A DNA stretch of 64,000 bases, taken from NCBI RefSeq assembly GCF_014697475.1, contig NZ_JACJRV010000003.1, forward strand, positions 248,001-312,000, given 5' to 3'. This stretch comes from Nostoc sp. FACHB-152. Lineage in GTDB: Bacteria; Cyanobacteriota; Cyanobacteriia; Cyanobacteriales; Nostocaceae. The position numbers and the translations under genes were made by a program. Under the pieces are notes generated by a model that made no database searches, was not told where the DNA came from, and saw nothing but the letters and a program-made list of their open reading frames with translations. This document shows positions 34,900 to 40,074 of this stretch, piece by piece (within the stretch, counting starts at the first letter, position 1; each line of letters begins with the position of its first letter).

Positions 34900-35409
34900 A
34901 TGCGCGATGCAGTTACAAGTTTAATTAAGAATTATGACGTAGCTGGACGTTATTTTGACCGCAATGCGATCGACAGTCTGAAATCTTATTTTGAGAGTGG
35001 TACAGCACGGGTACAAGCTGCGGCTGCTATCAATTCAAATGCTGCTGCTATTGTTAAGCAAGCTGGTTCTAAATTATTTGAAGAACTACCAGAATTGATT
35101 CGTCCCGGTGGAAATGCCTACACAACTCGTCGTTATGCGGCTTGTTTGCGGGATATGGACTATTATCTACGCTATGCTACTTATGCACTTGTTGCTGGTA
35201 ACACAAATGTGTTAGATGAGCGCGTACTCCAAGGGCTAAGAGAAACTTACAATTCTCTAGGTGTACCTATTGGGCCAACAGTTCGTGGTGTCCAGCTGAT
35301 GAAGGATATAGTCAAAGAACAAGTAGCAGCAGCAGGCGTTGTTAATGCTGCTTTTGTCGATGAACCTTTTGACCATATCACCCGCGAGTTGAGCGAGCAG
35401 GATGTTTAA
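34900..35409 (+). CDS. apcF: Allophycocyanin beta-like core subunit (beta-18)
   Basis: 169 residues, the expected length for ApcF and longer than ordinary ApcB. It carries a phycocyanobilin at C82 in YAACLRDMDYYLRYATYALV and keeps N72 (GGNAYTTRRYA), the site methylated in beta subunits. ApcF replaces one ApcB in the basal core cylinder of the phycobilisome next to the linker ApcE and helps pass energy to the photosystems. It stands alone, as is usual, with its own terminator, and is divergent from glnA. Confidence 0.93.
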   Translation: MRDAVTSLIKNYDVAGRYFDRNAIDSLKSYFESGTARVQAAAAINSNAAAIVKQAGSKLFEELPELIRPGGNAYTTRRYAACLRDMDYYLRYATYALVAGNTNVLDERVLQGLRETYNSLGVPIGPTVRGVQLMKDIVKEQVAAAGVVNAAFVDEPFDHITRELSEQDV

Positions 35410-35592: not shown

Positions 35593-36012
35593 ATGCCTGC
35601 CAGAGATATATATCATGCCGCATTCATTAAAGCACTTACAGCAGATGGTTGGACAATAACCAACGATCCTTTTTATCTTGCCTATGGTGGTAGAGAACTT
35701 TACATAGATATTGGAGCCGAAAAAGTTACTATTGCTGCTGAGAGAGATAATGAAAAAATAGCGGTTGAAATCAAAAGTTTTCTCAGCCTTTCTCCTGTGA
35801 GTGACTTGCAAGAAGCTGTGGGACAGTATGAAATTTACCGCACTGTGCTTAAAGAACTGGAACCATCACGCAAACTATATCTAGCAGTGGCTCAGCGAGT
35901 TTATGAAGGTATATTTTCTGAACGCTTTGGTCAGCTAATTATCACTAATATAAAAATAAATCTAATTATTTTTGATGAGAAAACAGAGAGGATTATTACA
36001 TGGGTAAGCTAA
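35593..36012 (+). CDS. xisH: XisH family protein
   Basis: 139 residues, the family length. The sequence from MPARDIYHAAFIKALTADGW, with IDIGAEKVTIAAERDNEKIA and VEIKSFLSLSPVSDLQEAVG, has the E/D and E-x-K positions of a restriction-endonuclease-like (PD-(D/E)XK) fold. XisH was named for controlling excision of the fdxN element together with XisI and the recombinase XisF, but xisHI pairs are widespread in multiple copies without XisF, as here. Their general role is unresolved. It overlaps xisI by 13 bases, a translationally coupled pair. Confidence 0.93.
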   Translation: MPARDIYHAAFIKALTADGWTITNDPFYLAYGGRELYIDIGAEKVTIAAERDNEKIAVEIKSFLSLSPVSDLQEAVGQYEIYRTVLKELEPSRKLYLAVAQRVYEGIFSERFGQLIITNIKINLIIFDEKTERIITWVS

Positions 36013-36335
36013 CTCGCTATCGTGAAATTATTCGTCAATTAATATTTGAATATGCTGGTCATAAACCTGCTAATGGTCAAATAGAAACAGAAGCAGTTAT
36101 TGATTCAGAACGCGACCATTACGAAGTGGTACACGTTGGTTGGGATGGAGTACGCCGCATACACGCTTCCATCGTGCATATAGATATTATTAATAATAAA
36201 GTGTGGATTCAATATGATGGTACTTCTGAGCCAGTTGCAACAGCATTATTAGAAGCAGGTATCCCACGCGAAGATATTGTTTTAGGTTTCCATCCAGAAG
36301 AACTGCGCCAGTACACAGATTTTGCTGTGTCTTAA
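36000..36335 (+). CDS. xisI: XisI family protein
   Basis: 111 residues, complete. Typical features are LTRYREIIRQLIFEYAGHKP, the central YEVVHVGWDGVRRIHASIVH and the C-terminal GIPREDIVLGFHPEELRQYT. XisI is the partner of XisH. Neither an fdxN element nor a serine recombinase is visible in this window, so the pair likely acts in another capacity, perhaps toxin-antitoxin-like or DNA-processing. The start lies inside the xisH 3' end. Confidence 0.93.
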   Translation: MGKLTRYREIIRQLIFEYAGHKPANGQIETEAVIDSERDHYEVVHVGWDGVRRIHASIVHIDIINNKVWIQYDGTSEPVATALLEAGIPREDIVLGFHPEELRQYTDFAVS

Positions 36336-36473
36336 TTATTTTGATGTAGTGGCGTAGTCAGACTAAAATGTTGAATACTTTCGTGTAAGATGAGCATCTA
36401 GCTGCTTACCCACACAAATCATTCGTTAATTCAGCAATACCAAAATGATTTATGTCCCTTTAACAAAAATACT

Positions 36474-36508
36474 AGTATACTAAAGTATACTATAGTACAT
36501 AGTATTTA
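36474..36508. promoter_or_regulatory. Phased palindrome operator upstream of the Z1 operon
   Basis: AGTATACT occurs at 36474-36481 and again at 36484-36491, each a perfect 8-bp palindrome. AGTACATA follows at 36494 and AGTATTTA at 36501. The first three start ten bases apart, about one helical turn. They lie 20-50 bases upstream of the 154-residue gene, where a repressor site would be. Confidence 0.6.
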
Positions 36509-36526
36509 ACTAATGCCAATATTTCC

Positions 36527-36991
36527 ATGAGCATTAATGATCTAGAATTCTTGCACGGTGCGGCTTTTCTTCGACTTCTCAAAGGAGCATCTTATATATC
36601 TATAAGTTATTTATCTTCTATCCATCCGTCTCTTTATCTTGCCAAAAGTGATTATAGAGAATCTGCTATCTTATTCAAAATATCAAAAAAACCCAATTCT
36701 TCTTGGTCATTTAGCTTTAGTTCACAGGAAGAAATAGCATTAAGAATAGTTCATCAAACATATCCTAATGTCAAATTTTTTATAGCATTAATTTGTCATC
36801 GGGATGGGATTTGTTGTCTATCAGAAGAACAATTATGGACAATTATTAATCATAACGATGGTTTAGCAAATCAGCGTATCTCTGTGAAAAGAGAATTAAG
36901 AGGAAGCTATTATGTTAAAGGTACAGGTAGAGTTCCTTTAGAGCGAACAATACCTCAAAATAATTGGCCTGAAGCAATTTTATCAGCATAA
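36527..36991 (+). CDS. Unrecognised protein paired with the Z1 ATPase
   Basis: 154 residues; I do not recognise a named family. The N-terminus HGAAFLRLLKGASYISISYL is followed by SDYRESAILFKISKKPNSSW and SFSFSSQEEIALRIVHQTYP. A hydrophobic strand with cysteines, KFFIALICHRDGICCLSEEQ, comes next, then a basic SVKRELRGSYYVKGTGRVPL end. Strand-rich core, no signal peptide. The order (acidic strand, F-x-x-AL-x-C, G-I-C-x-L) recalls small proteins seen beside Z1 or other defence ATPases, but this is impression only. Eight bases separate it from the Z1 gene, so both are surely co-transcribed. AT-rich and without HIP1 octamers. Confidence 0.65.
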   Translation: MSINDLEFLHGAAFLRLLKGASYISISYLSSIHPSLYLAKSDYRESAILFKISKKPNSSWSFSFSSQEEIALRIVHQTYPNVKFFIALICHRDGICCLSEEQLWTIINHNDGLANQRISVKRELRGSYYVKGTGRVPLERTIPQNNWPEAILSA

Positions 36992-36999
36992 AATAATTT

Positions 37000-39168
37000 A
37001 TGACACATACTCCGATTGAAATTAATGGCGACTGTATTGATAGATTAATTAAAAAATTAGAGAAAAAAATAGGTCAGCGAGAAGCAAATAAACTTAAAGA
37101 CACTGCTATTGAAGTTGTTCAAAACTGCGTCAATGTTTATTCAGAAAATTTTGGTCATGGTGATGTAGGAAAAAATAGCACAGGGTTAGTCAGTCAAGTT
37201 TATAAAGGACAAGACCCAATTCCTAATGGTACAACCGGACTTATTTATGGTCGAGTTCAAAGTGGTAAGACTAACACAACTATTGCAACTTTAGCACTAG
37301 CTCATGAAAATAATTTTCGTTGTTTTATAGTTTTAACATCTAACAATACATGGTTAGGAGAACAAACTGCAAACCGTTTTAATAATCAGATCGAAGGCGG
37401 CCCTGTTATTTTTGATTGGGAGGCATGGAAAGAAGACCCAGATGATTTTGCAAAAACTAAAGTTATACCCTATATTAAAGATACAGGCGTTGTTTTAGTT
37501 ACAACCAAAAATATCTCTCACTTGAAGAGATTATTGATAGTTTTAAAAACCGCTAAAGTCAAAAATTTCCCTACATTAATTTTTGATGACGAAGCCGATA
37601 ATGCTAGTTTAAATACGAATGAATCTAAACAAGCTAAACACGGAAAAGATGCGGTTCCTGACAGTTCCACTTTTGTACACATAGGTGAGATACGTCAAGA
37701 AGTTGCTAATCATATTTACATTCAGATTACGGCGACTCCTCAAAGTTTGCTATTACAAAAGTTATCCCATCCTTGTAGTCCACAATTTTGTGCAGCACTA
37801 CCAGAACCAGGAGAGAGTTATATGGGTGGTGAATTATTTTTTACTGAAAAAAGTAACTACTGTTGTCTTGTAGATGCTGAAGAGATCAACGAAATCAAGA
37901 AACAAAAGGGTGAAAACCCTGGTAATCAATGGATAATTCCTGATGGATTGAGGTTTGCACTTTGTTGCTTCTTTCTAGGTTCAACTTATAAAATGCTATC
38001 TTCGGATAAAGAAGATGCAACATATTCTTTTCTTGCTCATATTTGTTATAAACAAGATATTCATAATGTCTTAGAGAAAGTTATTAGTCAATTTGTAATT
38101 CATTTAGATCAAGCAATTCGAGATAAGAGTTCAGCAACCAAAAACAAACAAGCAATAAAATGGTTAGAGCAAGCTTATGAAGAATTAAACAAAACTGTTG
38201 ATAAATTACCACCATTTAATGAACTAATAGATGAATTAAAAATTCAGCTAAGACGTGCAATACCTAAAATCATTAATGCAAACAACCCTGACAAAGAGCC
38301 TAACTATAATCCTGGGATGAATATACTAATCGGTGGTAATAGGTTAGGTAGAGGAGTGACAATTGAGGGTTTAATGGTAACTTATTATGGGCGTGATGCA
38401 AAACAAAAGGTAATCGATACAGTTCATCAACACGCTCGAATGTATGGTTATCGTCCACAATTAAAAGATGTTACTCGTCTCTTTTTAGCAGAACATATAC
38501 TTGAGTCTTTTCGTTCTATTCATGAATCGGATGAAGCAATGCGTCAAGCTATAGGAGATGATATTCATAACATTCAAATTCAACCTGTCTGGATAGGAGG
38601 AAATCTTAAACCAACTCGCTCTAATGTTTTAGATCCCTCCACAATTAATGTATTAAAACCTGGGAAATTGATTTTTCCTCAAAGTCCAGCTTACAAAAGA
38701 GAAGATATTGAGGAAAATTTTCATAAAATAGAAAAAATATTGATGAACTATACAGAAGATACAAAATATTATGAAGTAGATATAGATTTTATTATTCAAA
38801 TTCTTAGTCACACAAAAAGTTATTATATTCCATCTGAAGAATGGGAAGATAAACGTATTCTTAAAGGATTAAAAGATCTGCAATCAAAAGGTATGAAAAA
38901 GGGACGTTTAAACGTTCGTAGAGGTATCAAAAATAAAAGTCAAGGATTAGATATGCCAAGAAAAGCTCCTTTTGAATGGGGCGGATTTGGCTTCGGCTCA
39001 GGTGAATGGTCAATAAAAGCTCAAAAGGACTACCCTGATGTACCAACGTTAATTATTTGTTATCAGAAAGGAAATGATAAATGGGATGAGCATCCAATAT
39101 ATCTACCTATGCTGGTATTGCCTAAACAAAAATTTGTTTTAATGTTCAACTATGATGAGGAGGACTAA
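37000..39168 (+). CDS. Z1-domain SF2-type ATPase (putative defence endonuclease/helicase)
   Basis: 722 residues. Superfamily-2 motifs are readable: Walker A GRVQSGKT (84-91), Walker B/DEAD box LIFDDEAD (193-200), motif III-like QITATPQS (242-249), and the second-lobe motifs GGNRLGRGVTIEGL (445-458) and QHARMYGYR (477-485). This set with the intervening region is the Z1 domain, annotated as a putative endonuclease and known from operons with MORC/MutL-like ATPases, DNA methylases and Vsr-like nucleases. Here none of those partners is present, only the 154-residue protein. The role is presumably nucleic-acid sensing or cleavage in defence, by inference. Confidence 0.85.
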   Translation: MTHTPIEINGDCIDRLIKKLEKKIGQREANKLKDTAIEVVQNCVNVYSENFGHGDVGKNSTGLVSQVYKGQDPIPNGTTGLIYGRVQSGKTNTTIATLALAHENNFRCFIVLTSNNTWLGEQTANRFNNQIEGGPVIFDWEAWKEDPDDFAKTKVIPYIKDTGVVLVTTKNISHLKRLLIVLKTAKVKNFPTLIFDDEADNASLNTNESKQAKHGKDAVPDSSTFVHIGEIRQEVANHIYIQITATPQSLLLQKLSHPCSPQFCAALPEPGESYMGGELFFTEKSNYCCLVDAEEINEIKKQKGENPGNQWIIPDGLRFALCCFFLGSTYKMLSSDKEDATYSFLAHICYKQDIHNVLEKVISQFVIHLDQAIRDKSSATKNKQAIKWLEQAYEELNKTVDKLPPFNELIDELKIQLRRAIPKIINANNPDKEPNYNPGMNILIGGNRLGRGVTIEGLMVTYYGRDAKQKVIDTVHQHARMYGYRPQLKDVTRLFLAEHILESFRSIHESDEAMRQAIGDDIHNIQIQPVWIGGNLKPTRSNVLDPSTINVLKPGKLIFPQSPAYKREDIEENFHKIEKILMNYTEDTKYYEVDIDFIIQILSHTKSYYIPSEEWEDKRILKGLKDLQSKGMKKGRLNVRRGIKNKSQGLDMPRKAPFEWGGFGFGSGEWSIKAQKDYPDVPTLIICYQKGNDKWDEHPIYLPMLVLPKQKFVLMFNYDEED

Positions 39169-39255: not shown

Positions 39256-40074
39256 TTGGTTAAAAAACGGCTTGATACATTATTAGTAGAGTTAAATTTA
39301 TGTAATTCTCGCGCTTTAGCACAAAGGCTAATTCAAGCGGGGGAAGTGATGGTTAATGAACAGGTAATTGATAAGGCGGGGACAGAGGTTGATGTTGCGG
39401 CACAAATCAAAGTAAAAGAACGATCGCGCTTCGTTTCTCGTGGTGGTGATAAACTAGCCAAGGCTTTGGAAGTATTCGCCATTCCTGTAGCAGAACGGGT
39501 TTGTTTAGATGGCGGAATATCTACAGGTGGCTTTACTGACTGTTTGCTCCAAGCTGGAGCCAGTTTAGTTTATGGTATTGATGTCGGTTACGGTCAAGTT
39601 GATTGGCGGTTGCGAAACGACCCGCGAGTAGTTTTGCGAGAACGCACCAATTTACGGCAACTACAACCCGAACAATTATATAGTGAAGGCGATCGCATCC
39701 CTGATTTGGCGGTGGTGGATGTATCGTTTATATCCTTAACCAAGGTTCTGCCTGCATTATGGCAATTAACTCAAGCTCCCCGTGAAGCGGTATTGCTGGT
39801 CAAGCCACAATTTGAGGTGGGAAAATCCCGCGTTGGCAAAAAAGGTGTGGTGCGCGACCCTGACGACCAAGCTGATGCTATTTTCCAGGTATTGCAAGCA
39901 GCTGATAAAATAGGCTGGAGATACAAAGGCTTAACTTGGTCGCCTATTACAGGCCCAGCTGGGAATGTGGAATATCTGTTGTGGTTAGGGATGGAAAGTG
40001 AAACACCACCGCCGAATTTAGACGTAATTAAGCAACTGACGAAATCAGCAATGGCTGACTTACACGAGAATTAA
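39256..40074 (+). CDS. TlyA family rRNA (cytidine-2'-O)-methyltransferase
   Basis: 272 residues, starting with TTG 39256; AGAAGG at 39244-39249 supports this start, which is followed by VKKRLDTLLVELNLC. It has an N-terminal S4 RNA-binding domain (NSRALAQRLIQAGEVMVNEQ) and a Rossmann methyltransferase domain of the FtsJ type (VCLDGGISTGGFTDCLLQAG, AVVDVSFISLTKVLPALWQL, LLVKPQFEVGKSRVGKKGVV). TlyA proteins methylate ribose in 16S/23S rRNA, and some are also annotated as haemolysins. It follows the Z1 island without a shared operon. Confidence 0.92.
   Translation: MVKKRLDTLLVELNLCNSRALAQRLIQAGEVMVNEQVIDKAGTEVDVAAQIKVKERSRFVSRGGDKLAKALEVFAIPVAERVCLDGGISTGGFTDCLLQAGASLVYGIDVGYGQVDWRLRNDPRVVLRERTNLRQLQPEQLYSEGDRIPDLAVVDVSFISLTKVLPALWQLTQAPREAVLLVKPQFEVGKSRVGKKGVVRDPDDQADAIFQVLQAADKIGWRYKGLTWSPITGPAGNVEYLLWLGMESETPPPNLDVIKQLTKSAMADLHEN

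Follow-up and report, generated by a model that had tools for sequence, protein, structure and literature searches.

Motors of the kind found in CglI/NgoAVII-type restriction systems are usually accompanied by a DNA-marking enzyme that protects the host. In these systems an adjacent R subunit carries PLD nuclease and B3 recognition domains, and there is a cognate C5-methyltransferase. We have analysed a 64,000-nucleotide stretch of Nostoc sp. FACHB-152 (the window), in which a small gene encoding 154 amino acids (36527..36991, + strand) is followed by a motor gene (37000..39168, + strand). The two are a real, long-lived side-by-side pair of bacterial genes, the small protein being the constant partner of the motor. 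An earlier note on this DNA had described the two-gene unit; that observation is confirmed, with the constancy of the partner and the type of the motor now established, while the interpretation offered with it is supported in part. The motor has an SF2 (DEAD) core at approximately residues 79–250 (37234..37749, + strand), with the Walker A lysine K90, DDEAD at 196–200 and TATP at 244–247. A PF10593 match (37948..38619, + strand; 182 bits) follows, and then a C-terminal domain of approximate limits (38630..39165, + strand) for which the CglIIR chain of known structure, 6f1s, is a homologue (E 1.6e-10, profile A4).

The remaining components of a CglI/NgoAVII system were not found with the pair. 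No R subunit bearing PLD nuclease and B3 domains lies next to the motor, the examined flanks contain neither a methylase nor a nuclease as partner, and no cognate C5-methyltransferase was seen. GHKL and DUF4420 were found in 0 of 34 cases, none of the examined loci carrying the small protein bears an AIPR label, and the MzaC equivalog model scores the motor at 89 bits, below its cutoff of 1500. On balance, we favour the view that the pair is a variant of the CglI-type motor that dispenses with a methylase, in which the small protein probably stands in for the nuclease/recognition subunit; it looks like a stripped-down antivirus system. On the motor, the small protein would then be the subunit for recognition and activation; something other than an unmethylated sequence would be the trigger, and the outcome may be blockage or an unconventional cut.

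Structure prediction for a nuclease or sensor fold, which the earlier note had proposed, gave a restriction-endonuclease-like model of the small protein without the usual catalytic acids. The AlphaFold2 model (pLDDT 72.9, pTM 0.71; input of 11 sequences at 79–86% identity) begins with a helix and three strands, followed by a further strand, a helix and a last strand. In Foldseek comparison with the PDB the best matches were Hjc resolvases (E 5.6e-3, probability 0.98), then splicing endonucleases and RecU, and against viral models Hjc, RecU, DUF4365 and PD-(D/E)XK proteins are named among the first 50 matches listed; presumably these proteins share the restriction-endonuclease-like fold. Because every match has E ≥ 1e-3, and no significant match emerged when the small-protein profile was compared directly with those of XisH, Vsr, DUF4420 and others, the assignment of this fold is made with moderate confidence. 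Among 32 sequences, just three of them deep, the kept positions are E7 (31 E, 1 D), G11, K51, S53, K55 (31), W60, F62, G94, R122 (31), Y128 and G132; the conserved residues annotated on the gene comprise these except F62 and G94, together with Y37. No conserved acid was found in this set on strands 2–3, where the D and (D/E) of PD-(D/E)XK would lie; the residue at position 49, two ahead of K51, is hydrophobic, and K51 and E7 of helix 1 are retained. If the predicted fold is right, the absence of the usual catalytic acids is firm. Weak partial matches to the small-protein profile in two other cyanobacterial genomes (L078, 1441–1773, E 2.4e-4; L077, 1171–2061, E 9e-4) are possible remote relatives.

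The pair lies between a phycobilisome gene, read as apcF in the earlier note (34900..35409, + strand; left edge of the site), and a tlyA-type S4-FtsJ gene (39256..40074, + strand; right edge). The interval also holds xisH and xisI (35593..36335, + strand), a separate module. Here and at six other loci (L016, L019, L023, L126, L136 and L154) xisHI, or xisI alone, lies in this apcF–tlyA interval, with the pair present or absent and on either side of it; the interval looks like a hot spot for small modules. At five pair-bearing loci (L015, L021, L023, L024 and L123) tlyA was not found in the stretch examined or matches over no more than its first 28–38 residues. Ahead of the pair is a weakly conserved, AT-rich palindromic stretch, AGTATACTAAAGTATACT (36473..36497, no strand assigned), a possible promoter or operator; similar stretches occur at L015 and L024, and elsewhere not clearly. 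The description of the locus as an acquired island holds in part: across heterocystous cyanobacteria the same apcF site recurs, and the presence of the pair is patchy, with decay and signs of lateral exchange. Copies of the pair are also carried on two plasmids. A 2.17 Mb Neisseria gonorrhoeae record labelled as a plasmid (L063, NZ_CP119142.1) is probably a mislabelled chromosome. A scan of 10 flanking proteins, taken from four loci in all, showed that L179 has a cyclic-oligonucleotide-based antiphage signalling system (CBASS) set and L059 a generic SNF2 helicase; L043 gave weak matches and L176 nothing. In the window no known defence genes were found beside the pair.

The near-invariance of E7, K51, S53 and K55 across the 32 sequences, together with the restriction-endonuclease-like model, would also suit a restriction enzyme that still cuts, its active site shifted (built, for instance, on S53-x-K55 and E68 or on E7 and K51) and host DNA protected in trans by resident orphan methylases. 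The S-x-K-x12-E spacing of the window's protein resembles a Cfr10I-type pattern, but the three deep members have H or N in place of E68, and in L048 the spacing is shifted. Four C5-methylases are encoded elsewhere in the window's genome, and at least one PF00145 match was found in 21 of 22 further genomes searched; this presence says little, because large cyanobacterial genomes without the pair lie outside the comparison. One genome (G161) carries the pair and has no PF00145 match. We consider such an enzyme unlikely, if the most serious of the alternatives. Less probable still is a role outside defence, in which the motor and an Hjc-like junction-binding protein would serve DNA maintenance or plasmid stability on recombination or replication intermediates; the closeness of the Hjc and RecU folds, the plasmid copies and the chromosomal site that recurs in Nostoc and its relatives are consistent with it. 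An RNA-directed or abortive system, in which the motor would fire a metal-independent RNase like the tRNA-splicing endonuclease, seems improbable.

Comparison with described families places the small protein in phrog_28860 (146 aa; E 1.2e-12 for the window copy), a sequence family that carries no assigned function. Its predicted fold likens it to Hjc, RecU and other PD-(D/E)XK proteins, from which it differs in lacking the two catalytic acids and any detectable sequence-profile similarity. The partner here is one small domain with neither of those of the CglI/NgoAVII-type R subunit; the pair shares with that type of restriction both the architecture of the motor, C-terminal domain included, and an effector of two proteins, a motor plus one partner.
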